The notes beneath the pieces were generated by a model that saw only the letters and a program-made list of their open reading frames with translations, searched no databases and was not told the DNA's origin. A DNA stretch of 29,808 bases from a virus. The stretch spans positions 1 through 29,808 of IMG/VR virus record IMGVR_UViG_3300010354_000401. The stretch is one strand, 5' to 3'. Shown one piece after another: positions 639 through 29,501 of the stretch (its first letter is position 1; the number at the start of each line of letters is the position of its first letter). A program made the translations under genes and the position numbers.

Positions 639-1118
639 TTATTTTTCATCGTGCCTAGTTGGTTTAACTGGCATTCTTTTTTCCCTCTCATTAGACAGAA
701 GAATTATTAGGTCTTTTATTACTCTATGTGAGCTAATTCTATTTAAATTTTCTAGAATTGATTTGGTTTCTGTTATTGCTATAAATCCAGAAACTATTGC
801 TTCGATGGGCAAATCAAAATCTGTCAATAAATACTTATGAACTATAAATGAAACTATTATAGTAATAGAATATATTAAAATCTTGCTGATACTTCTAGAC
901 ATCTTAGAACTTGTTATGGTTTGCTTTTCCTTTAATGAAGCCCAGACGCCGGTAATGAGGTCAACAAATATTAAAAAATAAACGGCGAAAATTGCAGATT
1001 TTATTGGTGCTAAAAGAGACACCGCAATAATTAGCCAGCTTTTTATAGCCGCAGCAAAATTAGTTAAGTCAAAATAACTAAACACGCTTTTTAAATAAAA
1101 TTTTATTTCAGCAAACAT
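639..1118 (-). CDS. Holin of the phage_holin_4 / toxin-secretion holin type
   Basis: 159 residues with hydrophobic segments at about 24-38, 41-56, 78-98 and 102-117. Residues 53-57 are DLITG followed by a short basic loop, then RSISKILIYS, and residues 115-124 are ITETKSILEN. This layout (D-x-x-TG after the first membrane segments, E-x-x-SI-EN near the end of the last) is characteristic of the holin family usually annotated as phage_holin_4_1 or toxin secretion/phage lysis holin. The C-terminus is short and charged (EREKRMPVKPTRHDEK), as expected for a cytoplasmic holin tail. Role: permeabilising the inner membrane at the end of infection. No endolysin is visible nearby. Two late-promoter-like octamers precede it. 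Confidence 0.8.
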   Translation of the reverse strand: MFAEIKFYLKSVFSYFDLTNFAAAIKSWLIIAVSLLAPIKSAIFAVYFLIFVDLITGVWASLKEKQTITSSKMSRSISKILIYSITIIVSFIVHKYLLTDFDLPIEAIVSGFIAITETKSILENLNRISSHRVIKDLIILLSNEREKRMPVKPTRHDEK

Positions 1119-2797: not shown

Positions 2798-5782
2798 TTA
2801 TTCTAATTCTTCAATTCTGGCAGTTAGTAATTCTATCTTGGCGTTTAGTTCTTTAATAGCTCCAACCAACACTGGAATTATTTCAGTTATAGCAACACCA
2901 TAGTAATCCTCCTCAGATCCGGATACCGCTTCTGGAATATGCGGCAAAACTTCTTGAGCAATAAAACCAATGCGAGACGAGTTGTTTGATTCATCGGATA
3001 TATAATCAAAGCGAACCGGGCGTAAGTTGTGGATTTGGCTAAGACCATACTCAAGAGTTTGAATGTTCTTTTTTTGACGTTGATCTGAAACGGTAGCCCA
3101 GCTAGTAGACCCACTACTAAGTCTTACTCCAACATCTGAACCATTGACTATCCAATACTCATTTCCACTACCGTTAGAGCCTGGCCCAACTTGCCAAGTG
3201 GTCCCACTACCGAATTTGAGATATGATATAGAACCTGAAGAACCAGCGGATGCGCTAGTGCCAATTAAAACTTGCCCAGCATTATTAATCCTGAAACGCT
3301 CAGTGCCAACCGTCGCATCTCCGCCAGTATAAAATATGTGGTCGCTACCATTTGCGGCATAATTTACTGCACCGTTAAAATCAACCCGCCAACGACCTCG
3401 AAGGGTTCCATTAATTTGAGCTTGCAAAACAGCTTGACCAGTTGCACTACTATTAGTAATTCTAATGCTGTCGTTGCCAGTTTGACTAAATGAGCTTGCT
3501 GTTTCTACATCTAATGGAGCATCTGGACTTGTAGTTCCAATTCCTAATTTTCCAGTGCTATCAATCCTTACTCTTTCGCTTCCATTAGTAGCTACAGCCC
3601 AAGTATCAGCAGCAGGAACAAATATTCCGGTATTAGAATCATTACCAGCACACAGTGAAGGAGCACCGGCTGTTCCTGTTCCATTAATTAGTATTTGACC
3701 TTCGCTTGTAACTGTCATGCGAGTGGTGGCTGTTATAGAGCCATTGGGGCAAGTTGCAAATATTATATCAAGCGGCATAGATGTTGAACTAACTGTTCCT
3801 GCAGAATTTACGATTGCCGAAATTCTAGCTCCGGTGGTAAATCCGGTTCCATCAGAACCTTGCATATTAATAGCGGCTAAACTGTCTCCTGCGGCAACTG
3901 CCGTAAAATCAGTGAATGTAGTACCTTTACTTCTGCGTAAAAATATATTTGCTTGCGTACTAGCTGAATCGTGATTCTGAATTGTTATACCATCTTGACC
4001 ACCTAAAAATGATAAACTAAGTGAAGTATACTCTGTGACTCCACCAATTCTAACTTTTCCATTATTATTAACTCTAAGTCTCTCTATTCCTCCGGTAGAA
4101 ATTGCAAGTATATCCTCTGCCGGTCTAAACATGCCAGTATTAGTATCTACAGAAAATGAAAATGATGGCGAAGACGCTGAACCAGTTATTCCTTCAAATT
4201 GACCTGCGCCAATAATATTTCCAAGATGGTCTAGAGTAAGTCTTGTAGTTAGTGTACCTGATGCGTTTGCAGTTTGAAATGCGAGTGAGCCAGGAATAAT
4301 TCCAGAAGTTATAGTATCTGTGACTGTTGCTAATATTCTAGCCGAATTTGCATAGGTTGTGCCATCTGCGCCCTTAAATGATATCATACCAAGCGTATCA
4401 TTTAGAGAAACCGCAGCATTTACGCCAACGGTGCCACTACGACTTTTTTTAAATAAAAACTCAGATGAATATTGATCGTTAAAATACCTGGTGCTAGATA
4501 TTGAGCTTACGGCTTGTGTAAGTCCTTCTATTGAGAGGGCAACATCAGGAGATGATGTGCCTATTCCAACGTATCCAGCATTATTAATTCTAAATCTTTC
4601 TGTTCCTCCGGTAGAAATTGCGATGTTATCTTCTGCTGGTCTAAAAATTCCGGTGTTTGTATCACTAGAAAAACTCAACACCGGAGCCGCTGCGGAGCCG
4701 TTGCCTACTTGGATTTGGCCGGTGGAGGTTATTCTCAAACGCTCAGTTGATGCTGTGGAAAAAGCCAGAGTTCCAGCCGCTGCTCTAAACATCCCCATGG
4801 TAGTTTCATTTGTGAAATAAACTCCAGGAGATGATTGTGAGCCATCTGCAAAAGAAGTTATATAATTTAAGGTTCCTGCACTTAAAACAAAACCGGAACC
4901 CAAAGTTAATTGCTCTATCGATCCGGTTCCTGTTTGTCTTCCCAATAAAGATGGTCCGGTTATATTTTGTATTTTTGAAAAACTAACTGCCTGTGAGTCT
5001 ATTGTCCAGGTGGAGCCAGAATTAGAGACCGTTATATCACCTTTATCACCATCACTTAATGCGCTAGATGCAATAGTAACAGTTTTTGTAGTGTTGTTTG
5101 GTGTTAAAGTTATTCCAGCACCAGCTTCAAGGTTCAAATTTGTGGTTAAGCTATTTGCCGTTATTGTGGTTGCGTTTCCAGTAACTGAAATAGTTGAAAA
5201 TAAATTTTGGTCTCCGGTGTTTGTGCCACTGGAAGTACCACTAAATGTGCCGCTCTGAGTTGCTAATGTACCAAGACCCAATGTGGTTCTTTGTGCGGTG
5301 GCGTCAACATCATCCAGAAGATTTCTTCCTGCTGCTGTGCAGGTAATTTCCTGAATTGCTCCAGCTCCGGCTGAAGAACGACCCAAAATTTTATCTGTGG
5401 CTGAAACATTTTGTATTCTATCGTAGGTTATGGAACTTGGCTTTATGGTCCAAGTTGCACCTTCATTGGATACGGTTATATAAGCACCTTTATCTCCATC
5501 TGGTACTATGGTTCCTGGGCTAGTAGCAAGTTCTCTACCTAAATATACAATATACAAAGGAAAGCCCGCAGATGGGGCTGAATCAAAAACTATCTGAGTG
5601 CCACCATTGGATAGTGCATAATCATCATCGGGCTTTTGTACTTGTCCACTATATACAACCAAAATGGAAGATGCGCTAGAAACTCTATATGTTAAAGTAA
5701 AAGTAGTTGCACTACCAGTTGGAGTTAGAGTTTGCGTTTCAAATAAGCCGTATGGATTATCTCTGCCTATATATTTTCCCAT
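2798..5782 (-). CDS. Tail fibre with C-terminal peptidase S74 intramolecular chaperone
   Basis: 994 residues. Residues 1-90 form a phage fibre attachment domain (DNPYGLFETQTL, then TTFTLTYRV, YSGQVQKPDDDY). Two related segments (about 95-160 and 245-300: DKG-ITVSN-G-TWTI-...-ILGR/LLGR) follow. The shaft carries about five copies of a DTNTGIFRPAED...GGTERFRINN..GIGT repeat, centred near residues 329, 379, 549, 718 and 829. The C-terminus (about 890-994) is an S74 domain: SDQRQKKNI with the presumed cleavage serine S899, RFDYI, IGFIAQEV, and a final coiled coil (IKELNAKIELLTARIEELE). In this family the domain trimerises the fibre and then cuts itself off. Role: host recognition fibre, likely a long or side fibre. 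Confidence 0.9.
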   Translation of the reverse strand: MGKYIGRDNPYGLFETQTLTPTGSATTFTLTYRVSSASSILVVYSGQVQKPDDDYALSNGGTQIVFDSAPSAGFPLYIVYLGRELATSPGTIVPDGDKGAYITVSNEGATWTIKPSSITYDRIQNVSATDKILGRSSAGAGAIQEITCTAAGRNLLDDVDATAQRTTLGLGTLATQSGTFSGTSSGTNTGDQNLFSTISVTGNATTITANSLTTNLNLEAGAGITLTPNNTTKTVTIASSALSDGDKGDITVSNSGSTWTIDSQAVSFSKIQNITGPSLLGRQTGTGSIEQLTLGSGFVLSAGTLNYITSFADGSQSSPGVYFTNETTMGMFRAAAGTLAFSTASTERLRITSTGQIQVGNGSAAAPVLSFSSDTNTGIFRPAEDNIAISTGGTERFRINNAGYVGIGTSSPDVALSIEGLTQAVSSISSTRYFNDQYSSEFLFKKSRSGTVGVNAAVSLNDTLGMISFKGADGTTYANSARILATVTDTITSGIIPGSLAFQTANASGTLTTRLTLDHLGNIIGAGQFEGITGSASSPSFSFSVDTNTGMFRPAEDILAISTGGIERLRVNNNGKVRIGGVTEYTSLSLSFLGGQDGITIQNHDSASTQANIFLRRSKGTTFTDFTAVAAGDSLAAINMQGSDGTGFTTGARISAIVNSAGTVSSTSMPLDIIFATCPNGSITATTRMTVTSEGQILINGTGTAGAPSLCAGNDSNTGIFVPAADTWAVATNGSERVRIDSTGKLGIGTTSPDAPLDVETASSFSQTGNDSIRITNSSATGQAVLQAQINGTLRGRWRVDFNGAVNYAANGSDHIFYTGGDATVGTERFRINNAGQVLIGTSASAGSSGSISYLKFGSGTTWQVGPGSNGSGNEYWIVNGSDVGVRLSSGSTSWATVSDQRQKKNIQTLEYGLSQIHNLRPVRFDYISDESNNSSRIGFIAQEVLPHIPEAVSGSEEDYYGVAITEIIPVLVGAIKELNAKIELLTARIEELE

Positions 5783-5783
5783 A

Positions 5784-8585
5784 TTACAAAACTCTGACTA
5801 TATAATTTAATATTAAATGTGGTGTGTTTGTTTGAGTTCCAGAAGTAAGAACCGCAGAATTGGAGGTCGTGCTAACATTTTGACTATTGGTTGTTAAATC
5901 ATTATTTCCGTTATTTCCACCGGTTACTTTTCCTATGCTACCACTAAATGCTCCGGTTGCGTGAGTGTGAGAGCCGTCGTTAGTGCTCGCAGTCACACCA
6001 ATGGCTGAAGTATTATTTCTATTTTGAAGATTGGATGTTGAAGATAAAATAATATCCGGTATACCATGTGAATGAGCTGGTATTGAGTGTGTATGAGAGG
6101 TTTGATCAATATACATTCCGGTTGCTGCTGCGGAAATACTATGAACATGATCTAAATCTCTGGAATCTGTGCTTATTGAATGGCTGTGATTTCCCTGTGA
6201 TGGACCTTGTATTACACCACCATCTGTTTGAGCACTGCCATTATTGGCTCTAGTTGAGACATAAGTTATAGATCCCGTCTCATGATTATGCGAACTATTA
6301 CCCGTTCCCCATATTCTTAAAGTGTGAGTGTGTTCACCGCCGGAAGTGGTGCCTCCACCGTGACTATGTGTGCTCGCACCAGAGCCACCATATGTTTCAG
6401 ACCAAGATCTGGTATTACCTGCTGCTCCCGAAAGTGGTGTGGCGGGTGATGAAGTATATGTAGACGGAGTTCTAGTTACACCCGCTGCGGGCGCCGGACC
6501 ACCATAATTGCCATAATAAGTATTAGCTGTAGCACCCCAGTGATGACCGTGTCCTGGGTCTGTTAATGTAATGTTTGCTATAGATCCGTTGGTTGTTGCA
6601 TTTCCGCTGAGAGGGTGTAAACTGGTACTACCATTATTAGAATGAGTGTGACCAATATTTATGGTAGTAGTATGAGTTCCGCTATCAGCTCCAGTAATTG
6701 CTATGCTTGATCCTACGGCCGTGTCGTGAACATGATGATGCCCAGGAATAGTATGCGTGTGAGTCATTTCATGATTATGTGCCGGCACTGTGTGATCGTG
6801 AGTAAGAGAACGTAAAGATACGTTGGATATACCTTCATTTGTTCCTAATTGATCCGAAGGACCTGCACCGATAGGAACACGGCGTCTTAAATCTGGAATA
6901 TTAAATGTTGTGCTACCGTCGCCGGCTCCATATCTATATCCGCCAGCAGAATATAGAGTGTTTAATCCAGAATAAGTGGTTCTGGATATTGGTGTTCCAT
7001 CACACAAAAGCCATCTGCTATTAATTAAAACTCCAGAACTGGCCGTTCCAGAATATGGTGTTATAGATCCTATAGGCATTAAATTGGTTACAATTTCATT
7101 TATTAATCCTGGAAGAGTAGATACATCCACACCATCAACAGTACCACTTACTGTTATATTTCCTGCGATATTTGCGGAGTTAGCTTGAACAGCATTTGCA
7201 TTTGCTGTTCCAGATAAATGCAAGTCAGTAAACTTCTTTGTTGATGTGCCCAAAGTTTGAGTTTCTGTGGTTTCTGAAGCTATAGATCCTGTGGTTATAT
7301 TTGTAATTTTAGTTCCAGCAATAGAAGCCGAAATCTGAGTGGGAGCATTTACATTGGTAATATTAGATGCATCTGAATATAACAAATTTTGAACTGTTGT
7401 GCCATTACTTAAAAAAGAACGAATGGAGGTATTATTTGATAGTAATATTTTAGATGATACTACAGAATTATCCTGAATCTTTGTTGTGCTAATAGCATCA
7501 TCAGCAATTTTTGAATTAACTACGGAATTTGCTGCTAATTTTCCCTCGGTGACAGCAAAGTTCTGTAATTGTGCTGTTCCAACTGCATTGTTTGAAACTT
7601 CACCGGTTTGACCAGGAGATAGTACGGATCTTCTACTAACGGTGGAGAAGCCGAGGTGCAGAACTCTTATTTTAGCTCCGCTTGCAGGAGCAACTCTAAA
7701 CTTTATTCTGTTTGGCACTAAATCTGTTCTTAATGCATAATCAGAATTGGCTGTCACTGAAGTTCCGTTCCAATTTTCTCCAACCTGAACAGAGCCATTT
7801 ACCGTAACTAATATGGCGCTGTGATTTACTGCATCTTGAGCTAGGGTAAAATCGGTTGTGGTCCCATTTGGAGTAAATTCGGAAGGAGATTGAGTTACAA
7901 AGTTTCTAAGATTTTGTGTTAATTGATTTGGACCTACAGAATTATCTGATGGAACTAAATTGTAAGTGGCGTCACCTTTATGAACAACATATAGTCTATC
8001 TTCCGTCTTTGGAGCAGAAGGAAAAGTTATTTGTTTATTTAAATTTAAACCAGTTCCACCTATTGTATAATCAAAATGAGGAGATTCGGGATTTAAAATT
8101 TCCCAAAAGCCTGAAAATCCATGAACTAAAGTTAAATTGTCATTGGTTGTTGTTCCTGCGGTTTGAGCACCACTTTGTATTAATGTAATCGTTGCGGTGG
8201 TGCCATCATATGTGCAATCAGAAATCACAAACTTATTGTTATTGTTGGAAGAAACCGCATTTGTTATTGTAAGTGTGTGATCCGAATCTGTGAATTTGGT
8301 TAGAGATTCTCTAATAGTAGATACAGCAGCAGCCGCAGCTCCTGTGGTTGTTATGGTAAAAGTTGTCGCTGGCGGCGAGGCAGGAACTGTAATAGTAAAT
8401 GCCCCACCATCAGTTATTATTTTTTCAAGAATATATTTCTGGCGGAAAACATATACATTTCCCTCATAGCCACCAGGAACTTCTTGACTGAGATTAAATG
8501 TTTGAGTTGTATTGTCTGGAACAATATCATCTCTTACATTTGACCCTAAAACTAGGAGTGTTCTGCCGTTTCCTATATATGCCAT
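5784..8585 (-). CDS. Tail fibre with phage tail collar domain and histidine-rich (HxH) tip
   Basis: 933 residues. The N-terminal third has two fibre attachment-type modules (TQTFNLSQEVPGG; TTDFTLAQDAVNHSAILVTV). Residues about 330-500 are a shaft of short repeats (GTAQLQNF, KIADDAISTTKI). A phage tail collar domain follows at about 502-590 (MPIGSITPYSG, WLLCDGT, FNIPDLRRRVPIGAG). From about 593 to 875 there are roughly fifteen HxH motifs (HDH, HNH, HTH, HSH, HVH). In the T4 gp37 tip, HxH motifs from three chains hold a row of iron ions; the same is inferred here. Gene position matches T4 gp12, so a short tail fibre or a fused gp12/gp37-like adhesin is likely. AAAAGAG precedes the ATG. Confidence 0.87.
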   Translation of the reverse strand: MAYIGNGRTLLVLGSNVRDDIVPDNTTQTFNLSQEVPGGYEGNVYVFRQKYILEKIITDGGAFTITVPASPPATTFTITTTGAAAAAVSTIRESLTKFTDSDHTLTITNAVSSNNNNKFVISDCTYDGTTATITLIQSGAQTAGTTTNDNLTLVHGFSGFWEILNPESPHFDYTIGGTGLNLNKQITFPSAPKTEDRLYVVHKGDATYNLVPSDNSVGPNQLTQNLRNFVTQSPSEFTPNGTTTDFTLAQDAVNHSAILVTVNGSVQVGENWNGTSVTANSDYALRTDLVPNRIKFRVAPASGAKIRVLHLGFSTVSRRSVLSPGQTGEVSNNAVGTAQLQNFAVTEGKLAANSVVNSKIADDAISTTKIQDNSVVSSKILLSNNTSIRSFLSNGTTVQNLLYSDASNITNVNAPTQISASIAGTKITNITTGSIASETTETQTLGTSTKKFTDLHLSGTANANAVQANSANIAGNITVSGTVDGVDVSTLPGLINEIVTNLMPIGSITPYSGTASSGVLINSRWLLCDGTPISRTTYSGLNTLYSAGGYRYGAGDGSTTFNIPDLRRRVPIGAGPSDQLGTNEGISNVSLRSLTHDHTVPAHNHEMTHTHTIPGHHHVHDTAVGSSIAITGADSGTHTTTINIGHTHSNNGSTSLHPLSGNATTNGSIANITLTDPGHGHHWGATANTYYGNYGGPAPAAGVTRTPSTYTSSPATPLSGAAGNTRSWSETYGGSGASTHSHGGGTTSGGEHTHTLRIWGTGNSSHNHETGSITYVSTRANNGSAQTDGGVIQGPSQGNHSHSISTDSRDLDHVHSISAAATGMYIDQTSHTHSIPAHSHGIPDIILSSTSNLQNRNNTSAIGVTASTNDGSHTHATGAFSGSIGKVTGGNNGNNDLTTNSQNVSTTSNSAVLTSGTQTNTPHLILNYIVRVL

Positions 8586-9428: not shown

Positions 9429-9658
9429 TTAGTTAATAGTTCCAAAATTTTATTTAATTTCTCTTCGACCATATCCACTTTTTTTTCAAGTGTATTTAGT
9501 CTATTTTCCCGAACTAATTCTTTTTCTAGTCTTTGTTTTTCTGTATTTCTTTCGGATTTATATTTTTTATATGAATTTTCATCCACGTTTATAATGGCTC
9601 CGGTAATAGAATCTCTAACTAAACCATCATGTTCTTGGACTTTTAAAAATCTATTCAT
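9425..9658 (-). CDS. Short coiled-coil phage protein
   Basis: 77 residues. The N-terminus reads LKVQEHDGLVRDSITGAII, a pattern (K-x-x-x-H-x-x-L-V-R-D-x-x-x-x-A-I-x-N) that recurs in small proteins of T4-like cyanophages. Residues about 28-77 form a highly charged coiled coil (NTLEKKVDMVEEKLNKILE). The start overlaps the 3' end of the 2516-residue gene by 8 bases (ATGAATAG) and its stop overlaps the next start by 4 bases. It is probably a small virion structural or assembly protein that oligomerises through the coiled coil; direct function unknown. Confidence 0.78.
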   Translation of the reverse strand: MNRFLKVQEHDGLVRDSITGAIINVDENSYKKYKSERNTEKQRLEKELVRENRLNTLEKKVDMVEEKLNKILELLTK

Positions 9659-12600
9659 CTAATATAAGCATCCTAAAATTCTTAACTCTTACTGCTCTAG
9701 CTGGATTTCCTCCTCGCATTACTATTTTAGCTTGCGCTCCAGTAAATGCTGGCAATCCACCTAAAGTACATTCATAATCACTGAAATCTAGGTTGGATAA
9801 ATTAGGTCCTGGAGTTGCATCAACATACGCACCATTTACTTCGGTATTAAATGTAGCCTTAGTCCAAATAGTGGACTCAAATGGTGTTGATGCATTAACC
9901 AATTCTAATTTATAATATAACTCTATAGCGCATGTTTCATCTCGGGAACCCTCAAACATAATTTTTAATGCATTTGAAGGTCTTGAAACAACAAGTTTCT
10001 TGGATATATATTTCGACCCACAACTTCCGGCATCAGGAGATATTTCATCTACAAATCTATCTTTTTGTGTTATAGTTATGTTTGAATTTTCCGAACCCGA
10101 GGTTCCTAAAATCTTTCTATCAATTTCGATTTCAATTAGCTTAGGGCTGCCAGACAAATCAGTATCAGGAGTGGTATTATTTGGTGTATAATTTACAGCC
10201 AAAATTAAGGCTGGTTGTCCGCTAGTAGCAACGCTTGGGTTTCCAATATCTCTGCTACCACTGCTTGAACCCGTAATAGTAACATATTTTCCAACATCCA
10301 AGTTACTTAAATGTTTTGCGATATTTCCATCTGCGGTTTTTATTTTCAAGTTTTGCGAGTTTATATATAAAGCTCCCGAAAATCCCACATTTAATGGATA
10401 ATCCAATAGCAATTCGCTATCACTAACCACAGAAACAACTTTTCTGGATTCTTTTGCCGTGGTTGTAACAGTATCTCCAACTCGTATTTGCTCTCTGAAA
10501 ATTGTATCTGAGTTACCAGTTAAAACTCTGCTACCTGCTGTTCCTGTAACAGTTCCCGTAGCTTGAGGAGCTGATGTTGTAAAATACAATTTCCCATTTG
10601 TATTTCCTGTTGCAGGAGACACGGTTGTTGGAACAACCTGATAGTCATCTAATGCGGTGTTTATTACTTGACCTGGATTCACTCCTTCCACTGAAAGACC
10701 TCTGGGATCATCCAGCCTATTGGATATTAGCATAGCAGTCATTCTTGACTCATCTACTATTGGAGAAATATTTGGATTAGAACTCTTTAAAATCGCTCTA
10801 ACTTGAATAGACTTTCTGGCTCCAACATCTTGATCGTCCGTACTATAACTGTTTGCGGGTCCTGGTGGTAATCCAACAGAAGGCAACTCATTTATATAAG
10901 AAGCAACCAACATTGGATTATCAAATATCAATTTCTCATTTGCAAATAAGGTTTTTCTGGGTTGAATTCTATAGGTCTGAGTGGAAGAATCATTTACTCC
11001 ACAACCTGAAATAGTTTGAATATTCCAAGATATTTGTGTATCAGGGAATTCCAGAGGAGTGGTTAATAGAGTCAATTCTTCATATCTTTTATTTTCTGTG
11101 GCCAGTATTTTATTTCCACCATATCTTCCACTTTTTGATATTGGAAGACCTGGAGTTGGAGATTGAACGGTGATGCCAGTATAATTGCTAGTCAATGTTA
11201 ATTGAGAAGATGTTGATATTGATGCTATAATATAAGATGCGCCTGCTATTAGTATAGTATCACCCACCACATAATCCACATCGAATTGAGTATTGGATCC
11301 GGTTACAGTAGTGCTACCATTGGTTACAAAAACCACACCTCTTGGCTTACCTACATTTATAGTATAATAATCCAATTCTGTACTTTGAACTTCAAATCCT
11401 TGATAGTCAAATATCACATCAGAATTTAATCCACCCAAATTACCGGCTGAAGGTAAATTAAATGTGGTTGCTGGAATAACCATGCTGGCTGAAAGAACCG
11501 TGTTATTATAAAATTGGGTTCTTATGGTAGCTGTAGTTGCGGTGGGTGTAGATTTTGTAATTCTACGATTTTCTTTGGTTGTAGGATGTTGAATATATGC
11601 ACCATCTGGAATATTTGCAAGCGCAGCTCCAGTTAGTGTTGTTCCAACACTTGTTATACCAGTTATTGTGGTGTCATATGCTGGGCTAAAAACTACCTTA
11701 CTTGCTCCAGCTCCAGAAGTTCTTGCTGTGGTATGACCATGATTTGGATGCAAAACTCGAATTGATCCGGTTTGCGAAGAATCGCTGGAGTTTAAAAACT
11801 CAAATGGATCCAAAGTCAGAGCTTTAAGAGATAATTCTTCATTTACATAATCAATTTCTCCGGTAACTGCGGTATTAAATACAGCTTTGTTAACCCTAAA
11901 TTTCATGTCTTGTTTTGGAGTTTGAACCCAATTTATACCATTTTCTGAATAGAATAATAATCCATCCAAAAATACTGGCTGATTTATTGGAATTTGAGTT
12001 CCTATTTCCACATTAAATGGTTTGGTTGCTTTAGTATCGTCTGTTCCACTTTCTGCCACCCAAACATTATACTCTGTACTATTTGCTATTAGAACTATTG
12101 AATAATATTGTCCTTCGGCAACATATACCGGAGATTTAAATGTAAATCTGGTGGGGACCAATTGGCTTCTAGGATTTCCACTATATTCTGTTGCAATACC
12201 GGAAACAAAATTACCCGAGTTATTGGATTCTCCATTTAACCAAGGTCCACCAGGTCCAGTTATTGTTAGTGTACCATTTAATTCACCTTGATTATTCAAA
12301 TTAAAATGATTTGTTATTACTTCTGAGGCGTCTTTTATAACTTCACCAAATGGTAATATTTTATAAGTTGGGAAACCATCATCACTCATTGGTCTAAGTT
12401 GTAAGGTTATTGGAGGAGCATTTAAAACATCAGACGGTCTGGTTGCAAAATAAACATCAACGGAAGTTATAAAGCATCCACCTTTTTCCTTAATTAAAAA
12501 TGATTGAGCAAGAGGATCTTGAGGAACGGCTTGCGTGTCTCCAAAAGTAGTGCTTAACACTTGACTAATAGGATCACTGGATGTGGTTGTATTATTTGCT

Positions 12601-15600
12601 ACAGTAAACATTCTGGTTGAAAGAGTTGTTTGCTGCTTGGTATCAATCCACCCTCTGGCAACATATCTTGCATCACCTGCGGAATCAGGAGCTGGATTTA
12701 AAGAATTTATACTTGAAGTTGTAAGTCTAAAAATTCTTTCGCCAGTTTTAAATCTAAGACCGGTTTCTGTGGGAGAAGGAATAGTAAATGATCCACTAAC
12801 AGTTCCCGTACCGTCACAAATTAAAGCGGCGCCAACAGCCCCACCAATAGGGCGACAATAAGTCGATACATTTACTCCATCAAAGAATGGATAAACTCGG
12901 GCTTTTGGCTTAAATCCTCGACCCACAAAATTTATAGTTTTGCTTCTGATAAATTCCGCCATTGCGGTATCAATAATTCTTTCACCTAAATTTATGGGTG
13001 CAGAGAATCCTTGATCCACAAAAGACGATGTAAAATTGGTAGTAATTCTCTCTCCAGTTTGAGTTGTTGTGGTTTGAGTTTCTTCGGAAACCCAACTCTT
13101 TCTGTCAATAGGAATTCTCTCGCCGGCATTAGCGTACCCCTCAGGCACAGTAATGAAATCCATTTTATTCCATTTGGCTTTTGTTATATTGGGAAAATAT
13201 TTTTCTCGTATGGCATGACCAGCTTTTTCTAACACCTGTCTTCCAGTTCCTACCGTGGTCGTGTTCACTCCAGTCCAATTATTTACCGTAGTGGAATAAT
13301 CAATTCTAGTTCCAGATGGACCAAAAGTTCCGCGAGTTGCTTGCCATTGAGACTCATCTTTTATGTTTATTGGTTCTGCTATTCTGGTATCTCTCCATTC
13401 ATCCGTCCAAGGATCAATATCAACACTACCAACAAATACAAATACCGAATATGGATTAACATTTACAAATTTACTAGCCAAAGGTTGGTCTATAAACGTC
13501 TGAGTTGTATATGGTAGAGTGTATATTTCTCCGGTTTTTTGATAATTCTTGGATGCTCTCCTACTATTAATGGCAGTTTGATTGGCGATTTCGCTGGTTG
13601 TGGTGCCAAATAATAAAGCTCGCTCAAACAATTTAGGTGGATTAGGATCTTCATGGATAATAGGTCTAGCCATTCCACTAAAAGTATCTAAGGCGCATTT
13701 AAAATCTCTGGACGAAAGATCAGAGGCTGAAAATGTTTTAAAGTTATCTACTAAAAATCCATTTTTGAATCTATCTCGTCCTAAAGCATCTTTAACTGTT
13801 AAAGAATTGGTATCTTTTTCCAATAGAGATAGTGAAGTATAATATTCAAGATTTGAAATTCTATTCTCTAATTTTCCGATATCCTTCATGGTATATCGTT
13901 TGTTTTCTCTCATTTTTGGAGAGACGTGCTTTGTTGAAAATGTATATGCTCCAACATCAAGCTCATAGACTACCATTCCTCTATCAGGATCACTTGGAAA
14001 AACAGGAGATTCATCTGATTTTCCATACTTAATGTAAAAATCTTTGGTGTCCGGATCTAAAACCAGCAAATCTTTTCTAGGTAAATAAAAGTGATAATCG
14101 CATCTAACACTTTCCTTGGGTATGCCCAGTTCTCGGGCTATTGTTCCATTTATTCCTGATGTTCCAACCACTGGTCTAAAATCCAAGGAACTTGCCAAAT
14201 CATAGGTTGAGCCATCAGTGGCCGTAAATATCGGTATATCACCATATTCCATTACAGCTTGAGGATTTGTTCCTCCCACGAAAGGATAAGAATTTACAGA
14301 AAAATATTCTCCATTTTCTGTATGCTCAAAATAATCGAACTCAACTCTAACTCGCCCTCTAGGTTTTGCATATCCTGGTCTAAGAGTAACTTTGGCAATA
14401 TCGTAATAATGATCTCTTTGACCATTGTCCAAAGAATATATTCCTGTAATATCTTTACTTCCAGTTCCAGTTAAATTTTTATTATCTGAAGGTGTGATTG
14501 AGTAATCGGAACTTTCAACAATTCTGGTAATTCTAAGAACATCTGGTTTTCCTAATGATATTTCTGCAACATCAGCCCCGGCAGTTACTACAACCCCACC
14601 ATCTTGATATGCACCGCTTACTAAATTGAATGTTCCTTTTGCCAAATTTTTTAGCTTTTCCTTAGAAGCACTTCCACCCAATCTAGTTGTGGTATAATGA
14701 ACTTGATATCTGTCTCCGGAGTCGGCATCGTCGGAGTTTAACCATATTTCCAAGTTATTGTTTGTGCCTATATTTGGACGAATTTCCGCAAATCCTGCAC
14801 TAGGTGTTCCGGCAGAATATGGAAGAACTTGCAACCAAGTTCCCGCAAGTACCGCATTTGCTCCGGTTCCAACTTTTGTGGTTTTAATAACCGAATAAGA
14901 ATTTTGGCTAAATGGTTCAAACTGAGAGCCGCTAATTCCAGATATAGTTAATTTATTTCCAGATGGTTGCAGATCGCTTGCAATTTTTCTAACTGTATAT
15001 GTAGTGTCTATTCCCGAATCTTCTGAATTAATACTACCATCGGCATATGCTGTACGGATTGTTGCAACTGGACTATCAGGCAATTTATAAACTAATCCGG
15101 CATTTTTAGAATCGGTTCTCAATAGTGTGTATAGATAGTCAATTTTTGCACCATTGGTCCAAGTATGAGTTAGGGTAGATTCTACAATCTGCAATATATT
15201 ATCCGAAGTTGGATTTGCACTTACTTTATAAATTTTTGAAGTTGGTTGTCCGGCGTCAACTTCAATATAATCGCCGGCGGATAATAATTGAGACTCATCA
15301 TTTCTCCACGAAGTTCCTGTCCCTAGTAAAAGTTTTTCTCCAATGAAAGTCAAAGACACGCCAGTAGTTGTGGCGGTCGCATTTGCAATCAAAGTAATTT
15401 GAGTTTCACTGTCTATAGAGTAAATTTTACTTGAAACTCCGGTGCCAGTAACTGACATTCCAACATACAAATCTCTTGTTGTGGATAAGTTAGCTACAAC
15501 TTTTGAGTTATTGGTTATATTTCCAGTTCTGATTACATTAGGAACTCTACTTACAGAACCAGTCAATCTAAATCTTTCCAATTCAACGTCACAAGTGAAA

Positions 15601-17201
15601 GATGGATTGCTAGAGTAAATTGATTTAACCTGAGCGAAATCATTTGATCCAATCATTTGAACATTGAACAGAAACAGTCTATAGAATCTTGTATCGTTGG
15701 TACTACCAGATCTATATCCTGAAAAATTTTCTATTGTTAAAACTCTTGCAGTACCAATTTTTGTCCCCGAAGAAGATCCGCGAGTTGTTATTGGAGCATC
15801 ATGTAAATCCACCGAATCATATGTAGAAGTTAGTCCACCAAAAATATTTTTTACAAAAATATAATTTCCCAGAGGTGTTGAAATAAAATTATTATTTCTA
15901 AATTTTAAATCTCTGGCTTTTTTAATAGGAACATTTGTCGTGCTTGTCTTTTCAATTCTATAACCTTTAACATAGGCTAACCCAGGATCAACAACTATTC
16001 CCAATCTATCATTACATAAAGATATAAAAGATGGTTGCTCCGCCGGTGCGGTAGAATTATACGATGCACCAGGATAATTTTTTCCATTGTACTCAACAGA
16101 AAGTCCTGGACTTTCCAGCCCGAATATTTGCACAGATGCGGCCGCGGCCGCGGCTGGAGTGTCATATTGAAAAATTTCCTCGGCATTTGCTCCATTGACA
16201 TTTGAGCTATTTCTCAAAAAGTCTTTGATTTGTATTTGAAAAGATAGCACAGTATAGTCACCAGATTCTTCAAATGTTCTGGTAGCTAATTGCTTTTCTA
16301 ATCCAAGATCCGATAAATCTGTTTTGGTGGATCTTTTTGTTACTTCACCCGACTGTATTTTTAAAAGCTCAACATAATCTTGAACATTTGTGGTGGAGTT
16401 TATTGGTAACTGAATTAAATTGGCTGCAATTCTTAATCTATCGGCGCCAGGTGCACCTATGTTTGGTGATCCTGTTGCATTATCCAGTAAAGAGGAATCT
16501 TCTATCCAAGTTTCCAAACTTTCAATGAATTCCAAACCAATACTTACAGTTGGAATATTTGTCCAATTTTGGTCTTGATCTATTTCTGGAGCTATGAACA
16601 GTAATTGCTCATCAACTAAAACAAATCTTCCATTATAAAAGAAAATTGATTTTTGTATTTTTGCAGCCGATACTGTTCCTACTTTATATGAGCCGGCAGA
16701 TATTGTTGCCGATATAGGCGCATTTTCAACTGTGGTTATAGTTTGCTCAGGAGCAAATTTAGTATAAACTCCAGTTGTGTCGGCTTCCACATAGTTTAAA
16801 AATAATCTAACTTCTCCTAGAGAATCAGCCGGTCTTACTCCTATAATCTCAGCAGTAACTCCGGTATATAATCCGGCTGTACCTATTATTTTTTTTCCTA
16901 GCCAATAGGTTTTTAAATTATCCTCAGTGTCGGTGAACAAAGATGTTGAGGAGAGCAACTTAATAAATCCAACATTATTGATATATTTTGCAGCTTCTTC
17001 CGATCCTATTGGATAAACAACCGTACCATTATCAAATACAAATTTTCCCAATCTTTCCAATTGAGATTTTAATAGAGATTGAATTTGATTCAATTCTCTG
17101 GCTTGTACTGCTCTACCAGGTCGAAAAAGGATCTGATAAAACTTTTTATTTTCATTAAAATCATCAAAATATGGTGACTGATTAAGATTTACTGTTGTCA
17201 T
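9651..17201 (-). CDS. Giant baseplate/tail-associated structural protein, DUF4815 family (gp9/gp10 position)
   Basis: 2516 residues, the largest gene here. It opens with the DUF4815 hallmark (SPYFDDFNENKKFYQILF followed by RPGRAVQARELNQIQSLLKS), found in structural proteins of T4-like cyanophages and other myoviruses. A helical segment near residues 1100-1140 (DIGKLENRISNLEYYTSLS) precedes long beta-rich repeats. Beta modules of the GTGT..F...GD.I type lie near residues 627, 1955-2005 and 2213-2277. A carbohydrate-binding-like or jelly-roll stretch (SVDVYFATRPSD, PVYVAEGQYYSIVL) lies near 1570-1720. It follows gp8, the place of T4 gp9 and gp10, so it likely builds the outer baseplate and fibre attachment. 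A GC-only tract encoding six alanines sits at 16138-16154. Confidence 0.85.
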   Translation of the reverse strand: MTTVNLNQSPYFDDFNENKKFYQILFRPGRAVQARELNQIQSLLKSQLERLGKFVFDNGTVVYPIGSEEAAKYINNVGFIKLLSSTSLFTDTEDNLKTYWLGKKIIGTAGLYTGVTAEIIGVRPADSLGEVRLFLNYVEADTTGVYTKFAPEQTITTVENAPISATISAGSYKVGTVSAAKIQKSIFFYNGRFVLVDEQLLFIAPEIDQDQNWTNIPTVSIGLEFIESLETWIEDSSLLDNATGSPNIGAPGADRLRIAANLIQLPINSTTNVQDYVELLKIQSGEVTKRSTKTDLSDLGLEKQLATRTFEESGDYTVLSFQIQIKDFLRNSSNVNGANAEEIFQYDTPAAAAAASVQIFGLESPGLSVEYNGKNYPGASYNSTAPAEQPSFISLCNDRLGIVVDPGLAYVKGYRIEKTSTTNVPIKKARDLKFRNNNFISTPLGNYIFVKNIFGGLTSTYDSVDLHDAPITTRGSSSGTKIGTARVLTIENFSGYRSGSTNDTRFYRLFLFNVQMIGSNDFAQVKSIYSSNPSFTCDVELERFRLTGSVSRVPNVIRTGNITNNSKVVANLSTTRDLYVGMSVTGTGVSSKIYSIDSETQITLIANATATTTGVSLTFIGEKLLLGTGTSWRNDESQLLSAGDYIEVDAGQPTSKIYKVSANPTSDNILQIVESTLTHTWTNGAKIDYLYTLLRTDSKNAGLVYKLPDSPVATIRTAYADGSINSEDSGIDTTYTVRKIASDLQPSGNKLTISGISGSQFEPFSQNSYSVIKTTKVGTGANAVLAGTWLQVLPYSAGTPSAGFAEIRPNIGTNNNLEIWLNSDDADSGDRYQVHYTTTRLGGSASKEKLKNLAKGTFNLVSGAYQDGGVVVTAGADVAEISLGKPDVLRITRIVESSDYSITPSDNKNLTGTGSKDITGIYSLDNGQRDHYYDIAKVTLRPGYAKPRGRVRVEFDYFEHTENGEYFSVNSYPFVGGTNPQAVMEYGDIPIFTATDGSTYDLASSLDFRPVVGTSGINGTIARELGIPKESVRCDYHFYLPRKDLLVLDPDTKDFYIKYGKSDESPVFPSDPDRGMVVYELDVGAYTFSTKHVSPKMRENKRYTMKDIGKLENRISNLEYYTSLSLLEKDTNSLTVKDALGRDRFKNGFLVDNFKTFSASDLSSRDFKCALDTFSGMARPIIHEDPNPPKLFERALLFGTTTSEIANQTAINSRRASKNYQKTGEIYTLPYTTQTFIDQPLASKFVNVNPYSVFVFVGSVDIDPWTDEWRDTRIAEPINIKDESQWQATRGTFGPSGTRIDYSTTVNNWTGVNTTTVGTGRQVLEKAGHAIREKYFPNITKAKWNKMDFITVPEGYANAGERIPIDRKSWVSEETQTTTTQTGERITTNFTSSFVDQGFSAPINLGERIIDTAMAEFIRSKTINFVGRGFKPKARVYPFFDGVNVSTYCRPIGGAVGAALICDGTGTVSGSFTIPSPTETGLRFKTGERIFRLTTSSINSLNPAPDSAGDARYVARGWIDTKQQTTLSTRMFTVANNTTTSSDPISQVLSTTFGDTQAVPQDPLAQSFLIKEKGGCFITSVDVYFATRPSDVLNAPPITLQLRPMSDDGFPTYKILPFGEVIKDASEVITNHFNLNNQGELNGTLTITGPGGPWLNGESNNSGNFVSGIATEYSGNPRSQLVPTRFTFKSPVYVAEGQYYSIVLIANSTEYNVWVAESGTDDTKATKPFNVEIGTQIPINQPVFLDGLLFYSENGINWVQTPKQDMKFRVNKAVFNTAVTGEIDYVNEELSLKALTLDPFEFLNSSDSSQTGSIRVLHPNHGHTTARTSGAGASKVVFSPAYDTTITGITSVGTTLTGAALANIPDGAYIQHPTTKENRRITKSTPTATTATIRTQFYNNTVLSASMVIPATTFNLPSAGNLGGLNSDVIFDYQGFEVQSTELDYYTINVGKPRGVVFVTNGSTTVTGSNTQFDVDYVVGDTILIAGASYIIASISTSSQLTLTSNYTGITVQSPTPGLPISKSGRYGGNKILATENKRYEELTLLTTPLEFPDTQISWNIQTISGCGVNDSSTQTYRIQPRKTLFANEKLIFDNPMLVASYINELPSVGLPPGPANSYSTDDQDVGARKSIQVRAILKSSNPNISPIVDESRMTAMLISNRLDDPRGLSVEGVNPGQVINTALDDYQVVPTTVSPATGNTNGKLYFTTSAPQATGTVTGTAGSRVLTGNSDTIFREQIRVGDTVTTTAKESRKVVSVVSDSELLLDYPLNVGFSGALYINSQNLKIKTADGNIAKHLSNLDVGKYVTITGSSSGSRDIGNPSVATSGQPALILAVNYTPNNTTPDTDLSGSPKLIEIEIDRKILGTSGSENSNITITQKDRFVDEISPDAGSCGSKYISKKLVVSRPSNALKIMFEGSRDETCAIELYYKLELVNASTPFESTIWTKATFNTEVNGAYVDATPGPNLSNLDFSDYECTLGGLPAFTGAQAKIVMRGGNPARAVRVKNFRMLILDE

Positions 17202-28913: not shown

Positions 28914-29501
28914 CTATCTATTAAAAACGTGCTCGATCTTCTCACTATCAAATATATCATATCTTGATAAAGCAAACAACAAATCACTTAATCTATTAAG
29001 ATATATTGGAAGATTTTTATCCCAACGATTAGCATCTTCAACTTCCAAAGAGTGAAGAGAATTTAAAAGCCAAATACTTCTCTCGGCTCTGCGACAAACA
29101 GTTCTTGCTATGTGTAAATAGGAATTTAAAATTGTTCCACCCGGAACAACACAGGAATTTAATTCTGGAATTGACTCACACAACTTATCTATCCAATTTT
29201 CTAGGAAATTTATATTTTCCTCGGTGATAACTTTTATTGCATCCGTAAATAGACTTGGAGAAGTAGCAATAATATTGCCAATATTAAATACATCGCTTTG
29301 AAGAATCAAAAGTAGCTCGACTAAACTTCTATTGTATTTTGTCTCTAGTACAGTACGAACCAAACCCAAATAAGCATTAAGCTCGTCAATGTCACCGATC
29401 GCATCGACACGAATAGAGCATTTTTCGATTCTATCGCCTCCGACAAGATGTGTAGTACCTTTGTCACCATTTTTAGTGTATAGTTTATTAATTTTTCCCA
29501 T
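28914..29501 (-). CDS. pduO: ATP:cob(I)alamin adenosyltransferase, PduO type
   Basis: 195 residues, full length for the family. Transfers the adenosyl group of ATP to cob(I)alamin, making adenosylcobalamin. Motifs: YTKNGDKGTTHLVGG (8-22, ATP binding), IGDIDELNAYLG (35-46), VVPGGTILNSYLHIARTVCR (118-137) with RRAER at 137-141 (ATP and salt-bridge arginines R133 and R137), and YLNRLSDLLFALSR (167-180). All catalytic segments known from Lactobacillus reuteri PduO and human MMAB are present, except that the phenylalanine equivalent to L. reuteri F112, which lies against the lower face of the corrin ring, is C117. A phage metabolic gene, possibly feeding a class II ribonucleotide reductase; none is in this window. 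Confidence 0.93.
   Translation of the reverse strand: MGKINKLYTKNGDKGTTHLVGGDRIEKCSIRVDAIGDIDELNAYLGLVRTVLETKYNRSLVELLLILQSDVFNIGNIIATSPSLFTDAIKVITEENINFLENWIDKLCESIPELNSCVVPGGTILNSYLHIARTVCRRAERSIWLLNSLHSLEVEDANRWDKNLPIYLNRLSDLLFALSRYDIFDSEKIEHVFNR

Follow-up and report, generated by a model that had tools for sequence, protein, structure and literature searches.

How is a long row of closely placed histidine pairs in one viral tail fibre to be explained? The fibre in question is a 933-residue protein encoded on the minus strand of a virus contig of 29.8 kb (IMG/VR record IMGVR_UViG_3300010354_000401, positions 1 to 29,808; hereafter the window). An original prediction, made from the DNA letters, placed about fifteen HxH motifs (two histidines separated by any one residue) at 5960-6805, behind a collar domain, and read them as a needle of the T4 gp37 type, with about twice the T4 number of pairs, inward-facing and in register. 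Here we describe evidence that the fibre is very probably the distal receptor-binding tip of a T4-superfamily myovirus, a trimeric needle threaded by a ladder of HxH metal sites. Judged from its sequence, it appears to be a longer representative of the gp37 design, with about 13 predicted metal sites against the seven of T4.

The predicted count was borne out: 15 HxH pairs, starting at residues 596, 603, 609, 616, 618, 646, 679, 740, 752, 766, 800, 813, 831, 838 and 873, lie within residues 596-875, running in window coordinates from 6800 (start of the first) to near 5961 (end of the last). The domain ahead of them is confirmed as a Phage Tail Collar, its match to PF07484 (E=3.9e-12) scoring 46.4 bits against a curated cut-off of 24. 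Since two of the pairs overlap in HHHVH at residues 616-620, at most 14 can be independent; these 14 non-overlapping pairs, spread over about 335-360 residues, are twice the seven found in the 167-residue tip of gp37, as had been foreseen. The histidines are strongly concentrated, with 33 of the protein's 41 inside the 282-residue HxH stretch. Shuffling this stretch 20,000 times gave 3.8 ± 1.7 pairs and never more than 11, compared with the 15 observed, and the 18 other minus-strand open reading frames that were checked contain one HxH in total.

The closest counterpart of this arrangement is T4 gp37, which, as read from the T4 genome, has a Pfam Collar at residues 816-863, seven HxH pairs between 883 and 1000, and the C-terminus NYIVRLA. 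The window fibre likewise has a collar followed by several HxH pairs, a needle and head homologous to those of gp37, and a C-terminal strand returning to the collar (NYIVRV here, NYIVRL in gp37). By BLASTP its tip is 33% identical to gp37 over 123 residues (E=8e-8, for a single comparison), with pairs 740/752/800/813/831 in register with 915/929/966/980/989. The short-fibre protein gp12 of T4, in contrast, combines a collar with a single HxH and lacks a needle ladder, as against the 15 pairs seen here. A search of the PDB with the single fibre sequence returned no match; a profile of 24 relatives was needed, which matched 2XGF (the T4 gp37 needle, E=1.4e-9), 1OCY (gp12) and 8KEC (the long tail fibre of phage A-1(L), E=1.3e-23). 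In the literature gp37 is described as a collar plus a needle (PMC7291167), with a collar made of residues 811-860 and 1016-1026 (PMC12724248), and its residues 814-860 are noted to resemble the gp12 collar (PMC3004832). Because gp37 itself possesses collar, needle and returning strand, their combination in a single chain is what the gp37 design normally shows, and the suggestion that the window protein fuses a gp12-like base to a gp37-like tip had to be dropped. The parts of the fibre gene can be assigned as follows.

5784..8585, minus strand: tail fibre gene, 933 amino acids (open reading frame; PHROG tail protein families; orthologues).
7071..8585, minus strand: residues 1-505, attachment and shaft part, common to other environmental phage contigs.
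6873..7070, minus strand: residues 506-571, Phage Tail Collar domain (Pfam PF07484; a confident part of the structural model).
6726..6800, minus strand: residues 596-620, dense first ladder HDH, HNH, HTH, HHH(VH), with spacing 7-6-7.
6324..6650, minus strand: residues 646-754, remainder of the predicted outgoing leg, with HxH at 646, 679, 740 and 752.
6369..6539, minus strand: residues 683-739, a 57-residue Gly/Pro/Ser/Thr-rich insert without histidine in the outgoing leg (from the alignment).
6189..6323, minus strand: residues 755-799, predicted apex or head, placed by the alignment opposite the head of T4 gp37 (between H929 and H966).
5961..6188, minus strand: residues 800-875, predicted returning leg, with HxH at 800, 813, 831, 838 and 873.
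5793..5819, minus strand: residues 923-931, C-terminal strand closing the collar (LNYIVRV; a strand in the model, predicted local distance difference test score (pLDDT) about 63-84).

Whether the pairs are under constraint can be judged from the relatives of the fibre. One locus, L041, encodes a full-length orthologue at 49% identity, and nine more match the N-terminal part at 36-46%. In a plain alignment L041 keeps 12 HxH pairs, and its aligned HxH histidines are identical in 25 of 25 cases, compared with 87 of 226 other residues, with the middle residue retained in 5 of 13. When histidine was scored as zero, so that it could not drive the alignment, 10 of the 15 pairs still coincided. Searching with the N-terminal part yielded further orthologues, and counting their motifs, a check that the original prediction had proposed, gave 11-14 pairs in each. 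Across eight aligned orthologues the pairs at 596, 603, 609, 616, 740, 813, 838 and 873 are present in every one, and those at 646, 679 and 752 in six; 17 of 29 HxH histidines are invariant, compared with 8 of 296 other tip residues (Fisher p=4e-15, which is indicative since the rows are related). Because conservation in this eight-row alignment differs between pairs, the working number of predicted metal sites is best put at about 13 (12-14) of the 15. With the post-collar tip alone (335 residues) as query, tblastn found no match among cultured phages, and relatives there were reached through the collar or through locus L142 instead.

These figures also bear on the idea that the histidines are a product of low-complexity drift or repeat expansion and bind no metal. 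The tip is indeed rich in Ser, Thr, Gly and Asn and variable in length, the insert at 683-739, which may be a surface loop, being mostly missing from orthologues. Yet no residues in the tip are better conserved than the HxH histidines, although the residue between them varies, and a hydrophobic pattern on one strand face, described below, runs along with the pairs. A chance or drift origin is rejected by the shuffles, the histidine-blind alignment and the conservation in eight orthologues, and we regard it as extremely improbable.

The needle reading also demands that the histidines face inward. In a beta strand, residues i, i+2 and i+4 share one face. At position +4 of the fibre pairs, 9 of 15 residues are I, L, V, F, M, W or Y (background 0.18, p=4e-4), compared with 0-2 of 15 large hydrophobic residues at positions -1, +1, +3 and +5. 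The same pattern recurs in 41 other tips, with a hydrophobic fraction of 0.63 at +4 versus 0.05-0.11 at neighbouring positions, and the fraction at +4 is 0.71 in T4, whose sites are known to be internal. Since this hydrophobic position shares its strand face with the pair, the histidines themselves are most likely turned towards the core. Thus the gp37 homology, the eight pairs kept in all eight orthologues and the hydrophobic +4 position all favour the inward-facing, in-register needle that had been predicted. The modelled collar and C-terminal strand, furthermore, align with 1OCY (Z 7.2) and 2XGF (Z 5.0; 811..1026) across both the first and the last residues; such Z values are weak when taken alone, and they agree with the sequence evidence in supporting a chain that returns to the collar.

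Several observations weigh against this picture. An AlphaFold2 monomer of residues 498-933 has a mean pLDDT of 47.9, with values under 50 along almost the whole needle, only the collar and the last strand being confident, and Foldseek, queried with this monomer, found nothing at E<=0.001. The low-complexity HxH motifs themselves supply part of the BLASTP score to gp37. Conservation is weaker for the pairs at 800 (4 of 8) and 831 (3 of 8), and poor for HVH618 (3 of 8, and overlapping) and HNH766 (present in the window only). Finally, the two legs are unequal and the spacings irregular (7, 6, 7, 2, 28, 33, 61, 12, 14, 34, 13, 18, 7 and 35 residues along the fibre), and some pairs may therefore not reach the axis.

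In the assembly that we propose, three copies would intertwine, each chain passing through the collar and then outward along the needle, turning in a head of ~45 residues, running back and completing the collar with its last strand. On the beta strands of both legs, HxH pairs would point to the three-fold axis, where three pairs, contributing six histidines, would hold one octahedral metal, probably Fe(II), and about 13 such sites (12-14) would be stacked along the axis. The predicted ceiling of up to about fifteen ions holds as an upper bound; as a count it is too high, given that one pair overlaps another and that conservation is poor for two. At 3.3 Å per residue and with a returning leg of about 75-120 residues, the needle would measure roughly 250-400 Å, an estimate from strand length alone, whereas that of T4 is about 150 Å (PMC3004832). 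The head at the apex, residues 755-799, is the part that would probably contact the receptor; the non-conserved HNH766 lies inside it, and many other tips have a gap of ~36-46 residues at this position.

What the metals would contribute is suggested by better known fibres. The gp37 needle holds seven irons in HxH sites, with H929 and H931 essential (PMC6957217), and R-pyocin fibres have octahedral six-histidine iron sites for which a role as folding reference or in stiffness has been proposed without proof (PMC6116203). By analogy, the ladder most likely plays the same role here along a longer needle: the metals would hold the three chains in register as they fold and would stiffen a needle ~twice the length of that of T4. 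The structural role would be unchanged if the pairs bound zinc or another metal. The single HxH of T4 gp12 (HKH445) did hold zinc in the crystal, which came after heat treatment and reconstitution with a zinc salt (PMC6116203), whereas the sites of gp37, the R-pyocin fibre and the central spike hold iron (PMC6116203); we therefore consider a metal other than iron unlikely, at perhaps one chance in five.

A further question is how unusual such a ladder is. We surveyed 104 complete collar tips (T4 gp37 and tips from viral contigs), which were retrieved by pattern and are neither independent nor unbiased, so that the place of the window in their ranking is indicative at most. The number of HxH pairs per tip ranges from 0 to 17, with at least seven in 21 tips and at least 14 in three, and the pooled 410 pairs compare with 63 expected from shuffling. 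Among tips with at least four pairs the count tracks tip length (Spearman 0.83), and the post-collar density of T4, 4.2 per 100 residues, is about equal to that of the window. Two cultured Synechococcus phages, S-T4 (L152) and Sf-CH5 (L157), carry 17 and 19 pairs in the part read, both lower bounds. The count in the window is thus not exceptional: it scales with needle length at the density of T4, and other tips carry 17-19. The ladders of S-T4 and Sf-CH5 are the most regular seen: on both legs successive pairs stand 10 residues apart (12 at the first step), with a single gap of 36-37 residues between the legs, matching T4 (929 to 966), and they display the layout of outgoing leg, head and returning leg most plainly. 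The corresponding gap in the window, 752-800, is 48 residues long and contains HNH766.

Long ladders in Synechococcus phages recall a published hypothesis for marine phages, the 'Ferrojan horse', published together with a prediction of six HxH sites for the fibre of an Alteromonas phage (PMC11705849); on this view the ladder would be kept long because bound iron attracts host iron-uptake receptors, or marine phages would act as iron carriers. HxH sites of the gp37 type, however, lie buried along the axis of the trimer, long ladders are not confined to the iron-poor ocean (12 HxH in the activated-sludge phage POR1, for example), and the dependence of the count on needle length is explained by a structural role. 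Nothing in the data favours an iron lure over that role, and iron display seems to us quite improbable; slightly less probable still is selection on the number of sites as such in the needles of marine phages, where a long ladder would act as iron cargo or as a lure for host iron receptors and not only as a structural staple.

Iron in fibre HxH sites and HxH motifs in marine phages have already been published; the new point is a length-scaled series of ladders, from none to at least 19 pairs, in which the T4 iron needle is no fixed structure and occupies one position within a broad spectrum of collar tips. Such a series allows one to ask what the metals do, whether in folding register, stiffness or iron chemistry, and it raises the possible iron load of a phage, which for six fibres of 13 sites would reach about 78 ions per virion.

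Some surveyed tips deserve separate mention. The environmental collar tip at L123:1014-2231 has 17 HxH pairs, mostly 12-16 residues apart, and ends in MLWCIKT where NYIIK is usual. At L033:4467-7332, three adjacent collar genes have exactly 10 HxH each at near-equal spacing (6-7), with a fourth gene at 9786-10277; the three could form three homotrimers or one heterotrimer. A heterotrimer has been put forward for the tail proteins of virophages (PMC12724248, a text that contains neither HxH nor iron), and a virophage origin of L033 was judged unlikely in view of its fibre-like neighbours. In the contig survey the spacings between pairs fall mainly into groups at 6-7, 9, 12-15 and 18; a step of 8 is rare and one of 10 absent, although S-T4 and Sf-CH5 show 10 throughout.

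Set beside named systems, the window fibre shares with the T4 gp37 tip (2XGF) the Collar, the HxH needle running out and back, the apex head and the C-terminal strand in the collar, and differs from it by an additional dense ladder beside the collar and a different N-terminal part. S-T4 and Sf-CH5 resemble it in collar, two HxH legs and head gap, and differ in that their spacing is near-strict whereas that of the window is irregular. The long tail fibre of Anabaena phage A-1(L) (8KEC), the best profile match among solved structures, also has HxH pairs after a collar-like domain, with about 5 in the aligned part, and the words 'metal' and 'histidine' are absent from the text of its paper. T4 gp12 (1OCY, 5LYE) has in common the collar domain and the returning C-terminal strand. 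Alteromonas phage R22Y gp12 (PMC11705849) is likewise a marine phage fibre with a predicted row of trimeric HxH iron sites, with fewer sites than the window, and the word 'collar' is absent from that paper.

The surroundings of the gene are those of a T4-type baseplate, with gp25-like, gp6-like and gp8-like wedge proteins and a gp5-like hub lysozyme. Because these neighbours are T4-type and the gp8-like protein is only ~31% identical to its counterparts in cyanophages and Ochrobactrum phage vB_OspM_OC, the phage is, by its sequence, assigned as a divergent T4-superfamily myovirus. A second fibre gene adjoins the first.

2798-5782: second fibre gene, with a C-terminal S74 intramolecular chaperone.

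Between the baseplate genes and the fibres, at 9651-17201 on the minus strand, lies a gene for a protein of 2516 residues with matches to DUF4815 and PHROG 358 (function unknown). At 28914-29501, also on the minus strand, is a cobalamin adenosyltransferase gene (PF01923, E=4.9e-50; NCBIfam PduO_Nterm, 154.9 bits against a cut-off of 108), which has only 15 matches among cultured phage records, all below 60% identity and many to short or unannotated pieces, and which is possibly a B12-related auxiliary gene.
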